Shown here: in pieces, positions 31,278 through 60,839 of the stretch
How positions within the stretch are numbered: the first letter of the stretch is position 1
Layout of the letters: each line of letters begins with the position of its first letter
DNA from: Candidatus Cloacimonadota bacterium
Lineage (GTDB): Bacteria; Cloacimonadota; Cloacimonadia; Cloacimonadales; TCS61
Direction of reading: 5' to 3'
Assembly: GCA_030445745.1 (NCBI GenBank)
Contig: JASUTE010000003.1
Coordinates: forward strand, 1-64,000
DNA: 64,000 nucleotides
Notes under the pieces: model-generated
The model's database searches: none
Told to the model about the DNA's origin: nothing
The model's input: the letters and a program-made list of their open reading frames with translations, nothing else
Made by a program: the position numbers and the translations under genes

Positions 31278-32678
31278 CTATTTAATTAATGATACTTTTT
31301 TAATACATTTTAATTTATCGTTTTGGATTAATTGAATAAAATATACTCCTGAAGTATAACTACTTGCATTCCAAGTTATCGAATGAAATCCACCGATTTT
31401 CTGTTCTTGAAGAATAACATCAGCTAATTGCCCTTTTACATTAAATACATTTATTTCAATGTCTGTCGGTTTGGAAATTGTATAAGAAATCGTTATTTCC
31501 GGATTAAAAGGATTAGGATAACACCTGAAATCAATTACATCAGGTAATACGACGTTTTCATCTATCGCTGATACTTGCCCCATTGCATCACATTTTACAA
31601 TTGTTATATAATCGCTCCAATAATCTTTTCCAAGATATATTATATATTGGTCGGTACGCTCTAAGATAGTTCTATCACCTTGAGCATTTAATCCAACCAA
31701 TCTTGGAACTTGCCAGATAATTTCACGATCATTATTAAACTTAGTAATATTATCTCCACCTTGAATAAGGTAATTACTATCTTGAGTGTGAAACATCGAA
31801 GTTATACCACCAACATTATTGACCTTTTCTGTCCAAATTGTATCTCCAATTGCATTCATTTTTATCAAATATCCAAAATATTCTCGTTCAACAGTATTAT
31901 TGATATGACCACCAATTAGAAGTTCACTTTCTGAATTCTCAATTATACATTTTGCTAAGTCAATCGAATTTGCAGTACCATTATATGTCCAAGTCCATAG
32001 AGAATCACCTGTTGCATTAGTTTTTATCACAAGTATGTCGCGGTGATTAATTCCAAAAACATAACCGGTTAATGCATATCCTTCGTCTGAAGTTTGAATA
32101 ACCGAATATCCTCCTCCATATCCAAAGCCATCCGGTAAATATGTCTCTCGCCAGATAAGATTTCCGTTCAAATCAAATTTCTGTAAACTAATAGAACCAT
32201 CCATAGAACCACCAGTAGTTACCATATTTCCGTCAATGGTAAGTTCAATGGCTTCTGTTCCGTAATCGTTATCTAATTGTACAACCCATTCAATAACACC
32301 GTCAGGATATCGCTTCAGTAAATATCGTCCGCCACCCCAGAAATTATTTCCTATAGTAATAAAACTACCGTCAGCTAAAACTATAAAACCGGAAGGTTCC
32401 GGTCCTGTGATAAAATCTACCATATCTATATTTGCCCATTCCAGGTTGCCATCACTATCAGTTTTCATCATAAAACCTTGGTTTGAAGTAAGTTCATCAC
32501 TCCAAATTGAGCCAATAACAGCATATCCTTCATCCGGACATACTCTAATATCTTCTACGAAATAAGATACATCTTCTCCGAATGGTTGGTAGTTTTTAAC
32601 CCAAGTGTCTTGCGCAAACAAGCCAAAAGCCAAAAGCAAAAAATAAAAAATAAAAATAATAGATTTTCTTCGGTTCAT
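31278..32678 (-). CDS. Exported propeller-like repeat protein with C-terminal sorting/FlgD-Ig domain
   Basis: A 466-residue secreted protein. Signal peptide about 1-22 (LLLAFGLFAQ). The body has at least six repeats of about 50 residues with the pattern DEGYALTGY...VIKTNATGDSLWTWTY, a delta-60/beta-propeller-like arrangement. The C-terminal 80 residues begin CYPNPFNPEITISYTI and end SGVYFIQLIQN...KVSLIK, the FlgD-Ig/type A sorting domain seen in proteins exported by type IX-like routes. Function unknown; surface or extracellular location is inferred. It is a close paralogue of the gene at 38384-39802 (shared QDTW...YQPFG...DEGYAV). It is preceded by the duplicated leader module and a strong AGGGAGG. 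Confidence 0.75.
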   Translation of the reverse strand: MNRRKSIIFIFYFLLLAFGLFAQDTWVKNYQPFGEDVSYFVEDIRVCPDEGYAVIGSIWSDELTSNQGFMMKTDSDGNLEWANIDMVDFITGPEPSGFIVLADGSFITIGNNFWGGGRYLLKRYPDGVIEWVVQLDNDYGTEAIELTIDGNMVTTGGSMDGSISLQKFDLNGNLIWRETYLPDGFGYGGGYSVIQTSDEGYALTGYVFGINHRDILVIKTNATGDSLWTWTYNGTANSIDLAKCIIENSESELLIGGHINNTVEREYFGYLIKMNAIGDTIWTEKVNNVGGITSMFHTQDSNYLIQGGDNITKFNNDREIIWQVPRLVGLNAQGDRTILERTDQYIIYLGKDYWSDYITIVKCDAMGQVSAIDENVVLPDVIDFRCYPNPFNPEITISYTISKPTDIEINVFNVKGQLADVILQEQKIGGFHSITWNASSYTSGVYFIQLIQNDKLKCIKKVSLIK

Positions 32679-32688
32679 TTTTCCCTCC

Positions 32689-32766
32689 CTAATTTATTAA
32701 GGTTATCTTCCTATCACGGCTGCAAGCTAAAAAATAGTTAGAACCGTGATTTCCTGAGCTACACAT
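32689..32766 (-). CDS. Conserved 25-codon leader frame, copy 1
   Basis: A 25-residue frame beginning MCSSGNHGSNYFL, with AGGAG eight bases before its ATG and its TAG stop touching the AGGGAGG that serves the exported-protein gene. An equally long frame with the same first 13 residues precedes the exported gene at 39898-41397. The second half differs mostly at non-synonymous positions but keeps length, frame and stop position (TAG here, TGA there). It may be a leader peptide with translational coupling, or a hairpin RNA that happens to be open. Confidence 0.4.
   Translation of the reverse strand: MCSSGNHGSNYFLACSRDRKITLIN
32713..32750 (-). promoter_or_regulatory. Leader hairpin before the exported-protein gene, copy 1
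   Basis: On the minus-strand RNA AUCACGG and CCGUGAU form a 7-bp stem enclosing UUCUAACUAUUUUUUAGC..., with a possible inner CUAA/UUAG pairing. In copy 2 (41474-41509) the right arm carries U for C, giving a G-U pair, so pairing is kept despite the change. Confidence 0.45.
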
Positions 32767-32854
32767 ACACTACACTCCTATAACATCCCGCATTTTTTGC
32801 AAAATTTACCGATCACAGTCCTCTCATACCGGAAAATAGTTATTGTAAAAGTTG

Positions 32855-32860
32855 TGTCAA
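32855..32860 (-). promoter_or_regulatory. TTGACA -35-like element in leader module copy 1
   Basis: Minus-strand TTTGACACAACTTTTACAA is identical in both module copies and lies about 90 bases before the leader frame. Transcription from here would include the 25-codon frame and hairpin in a 5' leader of roughly 150 bases. Confidence 0.35.
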
Positions 32861-32937
32861 ATAATTTCTTAAAAATTAGTTGCAGATAAATAATTGCTAG
32901 GTTGTTAATATCATTGATTAAATTTGTAAATGTAATA

Positions 32938-32971
32938 AAAAAAGCCACCCTGGCTGGCAAGAGTGGCTTTT
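32938..32971 (-). terminator. Terminator after the heparinase-like gene
   Basis: Minus-strand AAAAGCCACTC and GGGTGGCTTTT pair over 11 bases and run into a T-tract of seven. It starts 16 bases after the stop of the 32987-37558 gene and forms the outer end of the duplicated module. Confidence 0.85.
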
Positions 32972-32986
32972 GGTGCTAGTTTTTCT

Positions 32987-37677: not shown

Positions 37678-38235
37678 ATGGCTAAGAATTCATTTGGCAG
37701 CGAAGACAAATACCTAAAATCTGTCTTGATCTTGAAAATTCAAATGTTGTTGTTCATTCAAAAACAGAAGAACGATTTAGATGAGAAAATCAAAAAATAT
37801 GTAGATGAAAATCTAAGTCAGGAATTCAGTATAGTTACATCTATTGCCGGAGTTGGACAAAATACAGCTGAAAAGTTTCTTATTGAGATCGGGGAAGATA
37901 TAAACATCTATAAATCACACAAGCAATTAAGAGCATTTATGGGTATGGATCCGACAATTAAACAGAGTGGCTCTTCTATTAATGTAAATGGAAAAATCTC
38001 TAAAAGAGGAAATGCCCATCTGAGAAGAACTCTTTGGCAAATGGCCTCTGCTGTTAAAAGATACTCACCGACTTTTGAAGAGTATTATCAAAAGAAAAGA
38101 AATGAAGATAAGAAATACAAACAAGCTGTGATCGCTGTTGCTAATAAACTCATTAAAACACTTTATGCACTTTTAAAGAACAAATCTCACTACTCTGAAA
38201 ATTACAGAAATCAATTAAAAGTTATTTATAATTGA
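37678..38235 (+). mobile_element. IS110-family transposase, C-terminal fragment
   Basis: A 185-residue remnant corresponding to the C-terminal half of IS110/IS116/IS902 transposases: a coiled-coil region, then TSIAGVGQNTAEKFLIEIGED, LRAFMGMDPTIKQSGSS and GKISKRGNAHLRRTLWQMA. The serine-recombinase-like Transposase_20 signature (G-x-x-x-K-R-G) is intact. The N-terminal DEDD catalytic domain (about 200 residues) is missing; only 119 bases separate it from the heparinase start and these do not encode it. It is therefore inactive on its own. It lies between two exported-protein genes on the opposite strand and may mark how this region was assembled. Confidence 0.85.
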
Positions 38236-38383: not shown

Positions 38384-39802
38384 TTATTTCAACAAAGTCA
38401 TCTTCTTAACTTTACTCACAAAATTATTAGTTTTTAATCTATATAGATAAATTCCTGATGACACTTGATTACGAAATTTATCGGTTCCATCCCAGACTAT
38501 GGGTATTTGATTTTGATAGTTAATGGTTCTAACCCTTTCTCCTTTGATATTAAAGATTTCAATAATCGGATTTTCGATAGTAGCAGGTAAATTGAAAATA
38601 ATTTTTGTTTCGGGATTGAACGGGTTTGGATAATTTGTAAGGGATATATCATTAATATTTGGAATTTCAAATTCATCAATTGAAACAACCTGACCCTGTG
38701 AATCAGTTTTGGCTATTCCAATATTGTCTTCCATTATACCGCCTACTCTTTCAAGACAGCAAATATAGCCAATGTTTTGTAAAATTCTTATAGGTTTATC
38801 ACCTCTTCCAGACCATCCAGTAAAAACATTATCCCAATTTAAAAAATAATTAACATCATAGTTATAGAGTTTTGCTCCTGATGAGGTTTGACATATCGTG
38901 GTGAATGAACCATTAGGAATACTCAGAACAGAATAATGAGAATATCCAACACTACTTTCAACTTCTTGTGTCCAAAGTGTATTGCCATCTTCATCTAAAT
39001 ACCATAAAAAACCTACAATAGAATTTGAGTCATCAAGTTCACCGGCAATCATTAAATTTCCATCTGAATCTTCAGTAATACTTTTACCTTCAGTCTCATA
39101 TCCATCATAAATTCTTGCCCAAAGCGAATCACCATTTGAGTCAGCTCTAATAACAAAAATATCTGAATGAGAATCATCATCAAAATAACCATAACCTGTT
39201 AAGGCATATCCGCCATCATTGGTTTGTATAACGGAATTACTAACAGCATAGTTTTCATTAATTTGAAAAGATTTAGTCCAAATTTCATTACCGTCATTAT
39301 CGATTTTTCTTAAACCAATGCCATTATATCTACCACCTAATACAATATTGCCGTCTGCAGAATTACACATGGAGTTTACTCCAAAATCATATTCATTTTC
39401 CCAAATTTTATTTCCCCAAGAATCCCTCTTTATTATATAGTTAATATTAACATTATTCCAACCAATTGAGATAAAACCTCCGTCACTTGTTTCGACAAAG
39501 GCATTAGAGCGAGTTTGACTTAAAAAAGATACCATATCTCTTTTGGCCCATTCAAAATTGCCATCTGTATCTACTTTAATTAAGAAACCCCATTGTTCAT
39601 CAATTCCAAATTCGGGATCGTAATAACTGTAATAGCCATTCACGGCATAACCGCTGTCGGAGCAGACAACAATGTCTTCGGGATAATAATCAACATCACC
39701 AAAGGGTTGATAGGTATTAATCCAGGTATCTTGGGCGGATAACCCAATGAAAAATGTAAAATGTAAAATGAGAAATGTAATAATAAATATTCTTCGGTTC
39801 AT
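38384..39802 (-). CDS. Exported propeller-like repeat protein with sorting/FlgD-Ig domain
   Basis: A 472-residue secreted protein, close paralogue of the one at 31278-32678. Signal peptide about 1-23 (ending GLSAQ). The body has repeats such as DGGYALTGYGYFDDD and FVIRADSNGDSLWARIY; the C-terminal domain starts [16 protein letters not shown] and ends FVSKVKKMTLLK. Function unknown. The ATG at 39802 follows AAGGGAGGTTTCC and starts MNRR like its paralogue; the longer in-frame TTG is less likely. Unlike the other two family members it does not have the full duplicated leader, only a shorter hairpin. Confidence 0.75.
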   Translation of the reverse strand: MNRRIFIITFLILHFTFFIGLSAQDTWINTYQPFGDVDYYPEDIVVCSDSGYAVNGYYSYYDPEFGIDEQWGFLIKVDTDGNFEWAKRDMVSFLSQTRSNAFVETSDGGFISIGWNNVNINYIIKRDSWGNKIWENEYDFGVNSMCNSADGNIVLGGRYNGIGLRKIDNDGNEIWTKSFQINENYAVSNSVIQTNDGGYALTGYGYFDDDSHSDIFVIRADSNGDSLWARIYDGYETEGKSITEDSDGNLMIAGELDDSNSIVGFLWYLDEDGNTLWTQEVESSVGYSHYSVLSIPNGSFTTICQTSSGAKLYNYDVNYFLNWDNVFTGWSGRGDKPIRILQNIGYICCLERVGGIMEDNIGIAKTDSQGQVVSIDEFEIPNINDISLTNYPNPFNPETKIIFNLPATIENPIIEIFNIKGERVRTINYQNQIPIVWDGTDKFRNQVSSGIYLYRLKTNNFVSKVKKMTLLK

Positions 39803-39818
39803 GGAAACCTCCCTTGTC

Positions 39819-39840
39819 CCGGCGTAGTTACCGAAGCCGG
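39819..39840 (-). promoter_or_regulatory. Hairpin just before the RBS of the 38384-39802 gene
   Basis: On the minus strand CCGGC and GCCGG enclose TTCGGTAACTAC, ending about 16 bases before the ATG. Like the two leader modules it has TAACTA in the loop and sits directly ahead of the RBS, so it may be a shortened relative. Confidence 0.4.
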
Positions 39841-39897
39841 AATTTAACAAAATTTGATTCTGCTTCTTTTCTAAGAAACAGGATAAAATCCTGCAAT

Positions 39898-41397
39898 TTA
39901 TTTTATTAAAAGTATTTTTTCAAAATCTAATAGTTCATCTTTATTTACGAGATTGCATAAGTATACACCAGATGCAAATTCATTTGCATTCCAGCTAACT
40001 ACTGTTTGCAGATTAATAAATGTTACTTCATCGATTTTCTGGCCTCTAATATTATAAATCTCGATTCGAAGATTATCATCTATTTCAGCTTTAACTTCAA
40101 AATTTATAATAGGATTAAATGGATTAGGATAAGCCTTTAAATTCGGTTCTTGGATAACAATTACATCATCATTGACATCAGTAGAATTTCCATTTTCATC
40201 CATTTTGGTTATTACAAGAGTATCTTGATTTTTAATGCTTATACAAGCAAAGTAGCTATTCTCAACTTTCTGCAACACTTCGGGACCATCGCATAAACTG
40301 CCTTGTACTTCTCGATCCCACATTAATGTATTATTTAAATCAAACTGGCATATTTCAGCGTTATTATTTATTATTGCTGCCATAACTATATAGTTATTAA
40401 AATCAGACACAATTGATGGTAAATATTGATAAAATGTATATTCTGATTCTATAAAGTAATTATCAATTACTATTCCATTATTTGTAATATTTTCAATAAT
40501 TATACCGTAATCTTGATTTTCATTATTACAAATACCTGTCGTTAAAAATTGATTACTTGCTGGATCCAATAAAATTGAATTATAATAAAAACATTGATAT
40601 TGTTCTTCGACAAAATGTTTCCACTCTATTTCACCTTCATAGCTTAAGCCGAGAGTAAATCCTATCCAATTTAATTCTGAATTCCATGTGTGTCCAACAA
40701 TAAGAGGTTTATCCTTTTCTGTTAAAGCTATATCATAAGCATTTTTATAAATTAAACTATCCTGATAAGTTTTTGTCCACAATGTATCACCCTGAGCAGT
40801 TAATTTAACTACTTCCATGATTTTTAAATAGGAGGGGTAGAGATAATCACGGTATCCTGCTGCATAAAAATCTCCATCAGACGTTTGCTTAATTGTATTT
40901 AAATAATGGAGAGGGGGGGAGGTTTCATCAGCTAGCTGTGTATGCCACTCATATTCACCATTAGCATCGAGCTTTAGAATAAAAGAACCGGATTCCTCTC
41001 CATACCCATCACCAGTTATGGGTATAACAAATCCTCCATCATTGGTAACCGTAAAACCCCTGGCAAAATACCAACCCTGCATCACTATATAAAAATCACT
41101 GAGTGTGGGATCATTAGTAAGCATTTTGAACCATTGTATATTTCCCAATGAGTCTGTTTTCAGCAGTGCAGTACAAAAATGTGCTACCATACCTTCGGTA
41201 AGTTCTATTTTCATCAATACTGCATATCCGCCATCTGGGGTTGTTTGCAAACAGCGTGGAGTTAGCTCAGAGATATGATCACCCGTTGTAGGATAAATGT
41301 ATGGATTTAAATCGTATTCTCTTTCAAAAGTTTCGTCAGAAAAAAGGTTAAAGCATAAATTTAGAAATATCATAAAGATTAATAGTTTTGTTTTCAT
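39898..41397 (-). CDS. Exported propeller-like repeat protein with sorting/FlgD-Ig domain (divergent)
   Basis: A 499-residue secreted protein, a more distant member of the same family. Signal peptide about 1-20 (ending NLFSDE). Repeats include PDGGYAVLMKI, LKTDSLGNIQWFKML, VKLTAQGDTLWTKTY and LSYEGEIEWKHF. The C-terminal domain starts AYPNPFNPIINFEV and ends LDFEKILLIK. Role unknown. The RBS plus start region is tandemly duplicated: the first copy of the ATG (41438) opens a frame that stops after 14 codons, so the second ATG at 41397 is the productive start. Confidence 0.75.
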   Translation of the reverse strand: MKTKLLIFMIFLNLCFNLFSDETFEREYDLNPYIYPTTGDHISELTPRCLQTTPDGGYAVLMKIELTEGMVAHFCTALLKTDSLGNIQWFKMLTNDPTLSDFYIVMQGWYFARGFTVTNDGGFVIPITGDGYGEESGSFILKLDANGEYEWHTQLADETSPPLHYLNTIKQTSDGDFYAAGYRDYLYPSYLKIMEVVKLTAQGDTLWTKTYQDSLIYKNAYDIALTEKDKPLIVGHTWNSELNWIGFTLGLSYEGEIEWKHFVEEQYQCFYYNSILLDPASNQFLTTGICNNENQDYGIIIENITNNGIVIDNYFIESEYTFYQYLPSIVSDFNNYIVMAAIINNNAEICQFDLNNTLMWDREVQGSLCDGPEVLQKVENSYFACISIKNQDTLVITKMDENGNSTDVNDDVIVIQEPNLKAYPNPFNPIINFEVKAEIDDNLRIEIYNIRGQKIDEVTFINLQTVVSWNANEFASGVYLCNLVNKDELLDFEKILLIK

Positions 41398-41456
41398 TTT
41401 CTACTCCTCAATTTAAATATTAATAGTTTTGTTTTCATTTTCTACTCCTCAATTTA
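41380..41456. repeat. Tandem duplication of RBS and start codon (36-bp unit, 41-bp offset)
   Basis: The segment at 41380-41415 recurs at 41421-41456. On the minus strand each unit holds TTGAGGAGTAGAAAATGAAA, so both contain a GAGGAG and an ATG. The first ATG reads MKTKLLIFKLRSRK and stops at a TGA overlapping the true start as AAAATGA. This looks like a replication-slippage duplication, possibly recent since the units are identical. Confidence 0.85.
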
Positions 41457-41526
41457 TTAAAATTATTCCCCCCTCACGATTGCCAACTAAAAAATAGTTA
41501 GAACCGTGATTTCCTGAGCTACACAT
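41449..41526 (-). CDS. Conserved 25-codon leader frame, copy 2
   Basis: Same length and first 13 residues (MCSSGNHGSNYFL) as copy 1, then VGNREGGIILIN. AGGAG lies eight bases ahead of the ATG; TGA overlaps the GAGGAG of the next frame. See copy 1 for the evidence on coding potential, which is suggestive only. Confidence 0.4.
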   Translation of the reverse strand: MCSSGNHGSNYFLVGNREGGIILIN

Positions 41527-41613
41527 ACACTACACTCCTATAACATCCCGCATTTTCTGCGAAATTTATCATCACAGTCCTCTCATAACGAGAAGTAGTT
41601 TTTGTAAAAGTTG

Positions 41614-41619
41614 TGTCAA
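41614..41619 (-). promoter_or_regulatory. TTGACA -35-like element in leader module copy 2
   Basis: Same promoter-like block as in copy 1, about 90 bases ahead of the leader frame and 217 bases ahead of the exported-protein start. Confidence 0.35.
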
Positions 41620-41685
41620 ATAATTTCTTAAAAAATAGATGCTACTTTGTTAATAACAAAAGTATAATTTGTAAATGTCATATTA

Positions 41686-41716
41686 AAAAGCCACCCTGGG
41701 TGGCAGAGTGGCTTTT
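41686..41716 (-). terminator. Terminator after rocD
   Basis: Minus-strand AAAAGCCACTC and GGGTGGCTTTT pair around TGCCACCCA, followed by TTAAT. It begins 16 bases after the rocD stop and is homologous to the terminator of the heparinase-like gene. Confidence 0.85.

Positions 41717-60762: not shown

Positions 60763-60839
<77 letters not shown>

Follow-up and report, generated by a model that had tools for sequence, protein, structure and literature searches.

The stretch analysed here, called the window, comprises the first 64,000 nucleotides of contig JASUTE010000003.1 from a Candidatus Cloacimonadota bacterium. On its minus strand, two collinear modules (copies A and B), each with promoter-like, leader and terminator parts, read in the same direct orientation into genes A and B, which encode exported proteins (Table 1). 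An earlier sequence-only reading had described this arrangement as a duplicated module in front of two exported-protein genes, and we confirmed it: the resemblance between A and B is far above chance for the 2.04 Mb genome (BLASTN, E = 3e-79). The same reading had counted two copies. Both are real, but BLASTN of the own genome with copy A as the query raised the total to four, all on contigs of this 38-contig assembly, by adding copy C and the truncated copy D on contigs C11 and C18. Contig C18 breaks off within the module core, as is expected where an assembler meets a repeat, so further copies may exist. Between copies A and B lies an open reading frame (37678-38235, plus strand) with an IS110-family transposase domain (PF02371, 185 aa, E 1e-24); it may be a fragment, since PF02371 is the sole domain matched. 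The sole Rfam match within the window is a tRNA gene at 60766-60839 (minus strand).

Genes A and B are paralogous, as had been proposed, and both proteins end in a type IX secretion system (T9SS) sorting domain (Por_Secre_tail, PF18962), scoring 44.7 and 41 bits against the Pfam cut-off of 27. A genome search with protein A identified exactly four full-length paralogs, namely A, C, B and gene 4. The last of these is the third paralog in the window; it lies immediately behind gene B, reads in the same direction and may belong to the transcript of B. The leader heads all three transcription units (3/3) of this four-member family and was found before no other gene, occurring elsewhere in the genome only as truncated copy D, so that the suggestion of a shared control element is well supported. 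The proposed surface-protein regulon is also reasonable, given the T9SS tails of the four-gene family and the presence of the translocon gene SprA in the genome (SprA_N, 74.3 bits, at C27). The proteins resemble known T9SS cargo in having a signal peptide, the C-terminal sorting domain and a SprA homolog in the same genome, whereas their body is a beta-propeller-like domain without a Pfam match. Protein A was modelled by AlphaFold as all-beta (pLDDT 72, built from three sequences), and most of its structural matches in Foldseek were beta-propellers, CylK and the PLL2 lectin among them; a sequence search returned no solved structure for it.

Table 1. Coordinates of the module copies, their parts and the genes behind them (window positions unless a contig is named).
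Feature	Position	Strand	Remarks
Copy A	32678-32975	-	BLASTN query
Copy B	41436-41716	-	BLASTN E 3e-79
Copy C	C11:7516-7778		another contig; BLASTN E 2e-76
Copy D	C18:1-162		core cut by contig end; BLASTN E 5e-56
Gene A	31278-32678	-	exported T9SS-tail beta-propeller-like protein, 466 aa; Pfam Por_Secre_tail 1.7e-11; AlphaFold/Foldseek
Gene B	39898-41397	-	exported T9SS-tail protein, 499 aa; Por_Secre_tail 2.4e-10
Gene 4	38384-39802	-	second gene after B, without leader; 39% identical to A
Copy A terminator (intrinsic)	32940-32971	-	behind heparinase-like, T9SS-tail gene; 15-nt arms 87% complementary, then T run
Copy B terminator	41686-41716	-	behind rocD-like gene
Copy A conserved A+T-rich segment	32861-32899	-	just upstream of -35; identical at 37/39 to C, 38/39 to D, 23/25 to B
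Copy A promoter, sigma-70-like	32833-32860	-	TTGACA-16-TATTTT; 10/12 consensus bases; 24-28/28 identical in other copies
Copy B promoter	41592-41619	-	TTGACA-16-TACTTC, by alignment; poor -10, missed by consensus scan
Copy A presumed transcribed leader, ~150 nt	32679-32828	-	covariance-model match 32676-32828; transcript start inferred
Copy B leader, with leader-proximal ATG	41436-41587	-	covariance-model match
Copy A hairpin I	32785-32805	-	-5.5 kcal/mol, z -2.6; stronger in B and C
Copy A uORF	32689-32766	-	MCSSGNHGSNYFLACSRDRKITLIN; AGGAG lies 8 nt from the ATG; TAG stop directly next to the gene's ribosome site
Copy B uORF	41449-41526	-	MCSSGNHGSNYFLVGNREGGIILIN
Copy A hairpin II	32713-32750	-	within uORF; 5' arm 32740-32750 can alternatively pair with 32812-32822
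Copy B hairpin II	41474-41509	-	-16.9 kcal/mol, z -7.1
Copy B 41-nt tandem duplication	41373-41454	-	ribosome site and start codon; two copies, 98% identical

We then compared the leaders with the genes behind them. From the presumed transcript start to codon 13 of an upstream open reading frame (uORF), the leaders are 92-98% identical (90-98% as far as the uORF start, 97-100% over its codons 1-13), and an invariant block of 40 nt spans the uORF ribosome site and start. From codon 14 to the gene start, B and C agree at 49/49 positions, their identity extending over the final ~60 bases of the module, whereas A differs from C at 16/49 (A about 67% identical). The leader, which had been described as almost unchanged, is therefore so up to codon 13, but not in its 3' third, where A departs from B and C at 12/38 positions. 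The downstream genes show 44-54% nucleotide identity and 32-41% at four-fold sites, which are saturated, and the proteins are 23.5-37% identical (B versus C 26%, A versus C 37%). Identity drops steeply at the start codon, while promoter and leader stay alike in all copies. The contrast that had been read as selective conservation is thus present, but it allows another reading, as the B and C leaders are identical in conflict with the gene tree, which joins A and C. This discordance, with A tolerating change where B and C match fully, is best explained by a recent spread of the sequences through recombination; constraint alone is disfavoured because it would need every base to be frozen in B and C, yet not in A. 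It is quite conceivable, though we hold it tentatively, that plain duplication and gene conversion account for the whole pattern, the promoter region having been duplicated together with the genes and kept similar through recombination, with an ordinary promoter, 5' untranslated region and ribosome site, and with the uORF and hairpins incidental. The B and C identity favours such an account, but the sharp fall at the start codon, with promoter and leader kept in every copy, argues against it, as does the invariant block holding the uORF ribosome site and start.

The terminator had been assigned to the module as well. It is well matched between A and B only; the alignment shows a diminished form in C, and in D none can be recognised. 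Near an unrelated gene on contig C15 there is a similar terminator. Each copy carries a promoter-like sequence of its own, with 75-100% identity between copies in this segment, although a consensus scan such as the one that detected the copy A promoter is expected to give 1.4 sites by chance. The A+T-rich spacer had been reported as diverged, which holds for its farther part (62-79% identity) but not for the 39 bases upstream of the -35 element, which are 92-97% identical wherever aligned (14 of these are absent from B). This segment is possibly an UP element or an operator. Its conservation, with the inverted arms ATCACGG...CCGTGAT within the leader, could also be explained if both were DNA operators for a transcription factor, but we regard this as most improbable: the arms lie about 24 nt apart and identity is spread across the whole leader, both atypical of one operator, and several substitutions are G-U-tolerant in kind.

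A shared 5' region before divergent exported proteins recalls the vpma/vsp families of Mycoplasma agalactiae and M. bovis, in which conserved 5' untranslated and signal-peptide regions precede divergent bodies and site-specific inversion shifts a single active promoter (PMC2268961). Here, in contrast, every copy has its promoter-like sequence, the signal peptides of the family members are only partly alike, and no inversion sites were found. An invertible promoter was rejected, the terminators being the sole inverted repeats found. More generally, the module could serve as a recombination homology block through which expressed surface-protein genes are swapped or switched in a phase-variable style. 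A common 5' end before divergent gene bodies, seen in several genera, and the discordant trees fit this idea. It is nonetheless very improbable, given a promoter-like sequence at every copy, the direct orientation of A and B, and promoters that are not flanked by inverted repeats; moreover, the only leaderless full-length paralog, gene 4, follows B and may share its transcript.

Within the leader, the promoter-like site is followed by TATGAGAGGACTGTGAT, hairpin I, AGGAG, eight bases and the ATG of the 25-codon uORF, which keeps the same frame and its own ribosome site in A, B and C (-7.7 to -9.6 kcal/mol against the anti-SD). Its stop is kept as TAG or TGA and, in A and C, lies directly next to the ribosome site of the gene. 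In B the first copy of the tandem duplication forms a 14-codon ORF whose TGA overlaps the true ATG of gene B, and the gene's own ribosome site is the second copy, 41 nt further on. The proposal of a leader-peptide regulator may fit the uORF and its good ribosome site, but not its second half: all seven changed sense codons among codons 14-25 (7/7) alter the amino acid, so that constraint on the peptide is possible only for the first 13 codons, of which codon 10 changes from N to D in C. The lack of a synonymous excess in this half is in line with plain duplication and conversion. Two further candidates were discarded. ORFs at the extreme 5' end of the leader (MINFAEN... in B) have their frame broken by indels between copies, and the uORF peptide is not a conserved protein by our searches, which gave matches in the own genome and one chance match inside a 132-codon frame.

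RNA folding predicted two competing states of the leader. The best 40-nt window reached -14.1 (A), -16.9 (B) and -16.0 (C) kcal/mol, compared with shuffle means of -8 to -9.5, and the strength of hairpin II was reached by 14, 0 and 0 of 300 shuffled leaders, respectively; these, like the other helix shuffle and energy tests, were made after the helices had been seen and on three sequences that are not independent. The z-score of the full leader of A is only -0.4. In the alternative state, the 5' arm of hairpin II, AGGACUGUGAU, pairs over a long range with AUCACGGUUCU (10-11 base pairs), which is mutually exclusive with hairpin II. This duplex was reached in 8, 1 and 1 of 1000 shuffles of A, B and C, while a helix of at least 11 base pairs arises in 20-28% of shuffles by length alone. 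Constrained folds placed the two states ~1-3.5 kcal/mol apart, C preferring the long-range one, and for A, B and C alike transcripts ending at 95-105 nt are predicted to take up the long-range state. A helix predicted over the gene's ribosome site has 13 bp in B and C (-10.2 kcal/mol) but is weak in A (-6.9 kcal/mol).

Of the five variable positions in hairpin II as drawn, three keep the pairing and two break it. Copy A, with six substitutions, nevertheless refolds hairpin II in a shifted register at -14.1 kcal/mol; 1.8% of random mutants with six changes in this stretch do equally well (5.4% with the positions fixed). That hairpin II exceeded the shuffles and withstood the substitutions argues against plain duplication and conversion, and its survival, set against the amino acid changes in the uORF, leans weakly towards RNA structure, rather than peptide sequence, as what is maintained. 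The changes are one-sided and none is two-sided, among only three, non-independent sequences. The suggestion of a new structured RNA accordingly gains weak support from hairpin II and none from two-sided covariation in the three sequences, from Rfam or from 124 relatives.

The architecture resembles that of ermCL-ermC, where a masked ribosome site is opened by a ribosome stalled on the leader peptide (PMC13410324): there is a short uORF together with RNA helices that compete, and a helix predicted in B and C would cover the leader-adjacent ribosome site. The likeness is in architecture only; here there is no known arrest peptide and no resistance gene. The uORF stop at the gene's ribosome site fits translational coupling better than stalling of the ermC type.

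Next, the distribution of the module was determined. BLASTN found no copy in 98 relatives, and a covariance model found none in 124 other Cloacimonadota genomes, all of these being genomes of other genera; the model's matches in the own genome are the sequences used to build it, and all others had E values of 0.16-0.8. A 22-base leader pattern with three mismatches allowed occurred in the own genome only, out of 125. Rfam gave no match for the module at the gathering threshold, the best sub-threshold one (E 0.42) falling on the terminator. The search of genome and relatives that the sequence-only reading had proposed thus yielded more than two copies, but all within this genome. Searching up to 125 genomes by BLASTN, pattern and covariance model gave an old conserved RNA family no support, with no copy in 124 genomes and no Rfam family. 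The confinement to one genome also agrees with plain duplication and conversion. A riboswitch-like RNA that binds a metabolite or protein under strong purifying selection might be expected from two hairpins, two near-isoenergetic conformations and a near-invariant sequence despite saturated gene divergence. We consider it highly unlikely, because the module is limited to one genome, matches in Rfam below the gathering score are at chance level, covariation is absent among the three copies and the leader always precedes one paralog family, not a pathway. A phage or plasmid origin was likewise rejected, with no match in phage or plasmid records (BLASTN) or in viral contigs (exact patterns), and the partial matches L006 and L007 were dismissed as chance or A+T-rich. 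Among the papers searched, we found none joining "Cloacimonadota" and "riboswitch", and no published account of the control of the many T9SS-exported proteins in uncultured Cloacimonadota.

With about even confidence, we interpret the module as a homogenised expression cassette for the exported-protein family, possibly with uORF-coupled control of translation. The cassette would consist of the conserved A+T-rich segment, the sigma-70-like promoter and the ~150-nt mRNA leader; in a single Cloacimonadota lineage, these parts precede each transcription unit of one small exported-protein family. Its copies were probably spread or homogenised among the paralogs recently, via gene conversion or cassette replacement, which would have kept one control region for the family while the proteins diverged past synonymous saturation. 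Ribosomes would probably translate the 25-codon uORF and terminate where the gene's own ribosome site lies, so that translation of the two would be coupled. The leader RNA would fold in either of two ways, with hairpin II inside the uORF or with AGGACUGUGAU paired to AUCACGGUUCU; in B and C the long-range fold would free CUAUUUUUUAGUU to cover the leader-adjacent ribosome site. Translation of the uORF may influence the choice of fold, and the folds may set how often ribosomes reach the gene's site. Several observations weigh against this reading: the amino acid changes in the second half of the uORF, the weak ribosome-site helix and the full-leader z-score of A, the frequency of long helices in shuffles, the poor -10 element and displaced ribosome site of B, and leaders in relatives that have no comparable uORF. 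The copies and where they lie, the contrast in conservation, the discordant trees, the uORF and the predicted folds are computed results, and the cassette claim draws on these; the start of transcription, the route of recombination, translation of the uORF, its coupling to the gene, the switching and any sensed signal are inferred. If the cassette reading is true, these genomes co-regulate a diversifying family through one control region that is copied from paralog to paralog, as is otherwise described for mycoplasma variable surface proteins. The evolutionary pattern and its plausible control mechanism, as judged from sequence, are confined to one sequenced genome.

Finally, we turned to relatives and studied what lies upstream of their family members. 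The protein family is widespread, being present in 23/125 genomes at E <= 1e-20. Several pairs have leaders far more alike than their proteins: 90% over 136 nt versus 26% for G033a/b, 84% over 93 nt versus 34% for G019c/d, 100% over 39 nt versus 45% for G002a/b and 98% over 99 nt versus 60% for G011a/b, in a comparison that covered family paralogs only and was not a systematic survey with matched control families. Other pairs, for example G042a/b, are ordinary duplicates with proteins more alike than leaders. Judged by these alignments, lineage-specific shared leaders recur in this protein family in several genera. They are unrelated in sequence to the leader of this genome, which again suits plain duplication and conversion, and carry no uORF comparable to its uORF. 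A bolder form of the cassette reading holds that each Cloacimonadota lineage has its own homogenised cassette before a diversifying T9SS beta-propeller family, and that in this lineage the cassette acts as a bistable, uORF-coupled translational switch whose leader peptide (MCSSGNHGS[N/D]YFL...) would be new; we think this unlikely.

Further features were observed in these regions. In the G033 pair (L137, L138), the shared 136-base stretch includes a TTTGACA promoter-like site. A different leader of ~100 nt is common to family members in G011, G039 and G022 of one genus (L115, L116, L117, L142, L159); its start at ATTATATCGCATC is abrupt, and the DNA in front of it is unrelated, rich in inverted repeats and somewhat like integron attC sites. 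As to an integron-cassette origin of the relatives' leaders, an integron-integrase model scored above its cut-off in G033 only, with an internal stop present. An GGGGGATGTTCGC-like element noticed upstream in G002 and G022 was dropped, as the pattern search found one each in G002 and G108 only. In two species of one genus, G108 and G115 (L134, L118), the upstream regions share TGAGTGGTG..TCACACTT.GGG.ATTTTTATGATATATAAGT, possibly a hairpin-bearing leader conserved between species. The sequence upstream of gene 4 (39803-39897; TTGCAGGATTTTATCCTGTTTCT...AATCAAATTTTGTT) is ~80% conserved in G023 (L141, contig C296), and the gene behind it there is 67% identical to A. This placement of a gene 4-like upstream region before an A-like gene suggests a reshuffling of gene bodies with respect to control regions.
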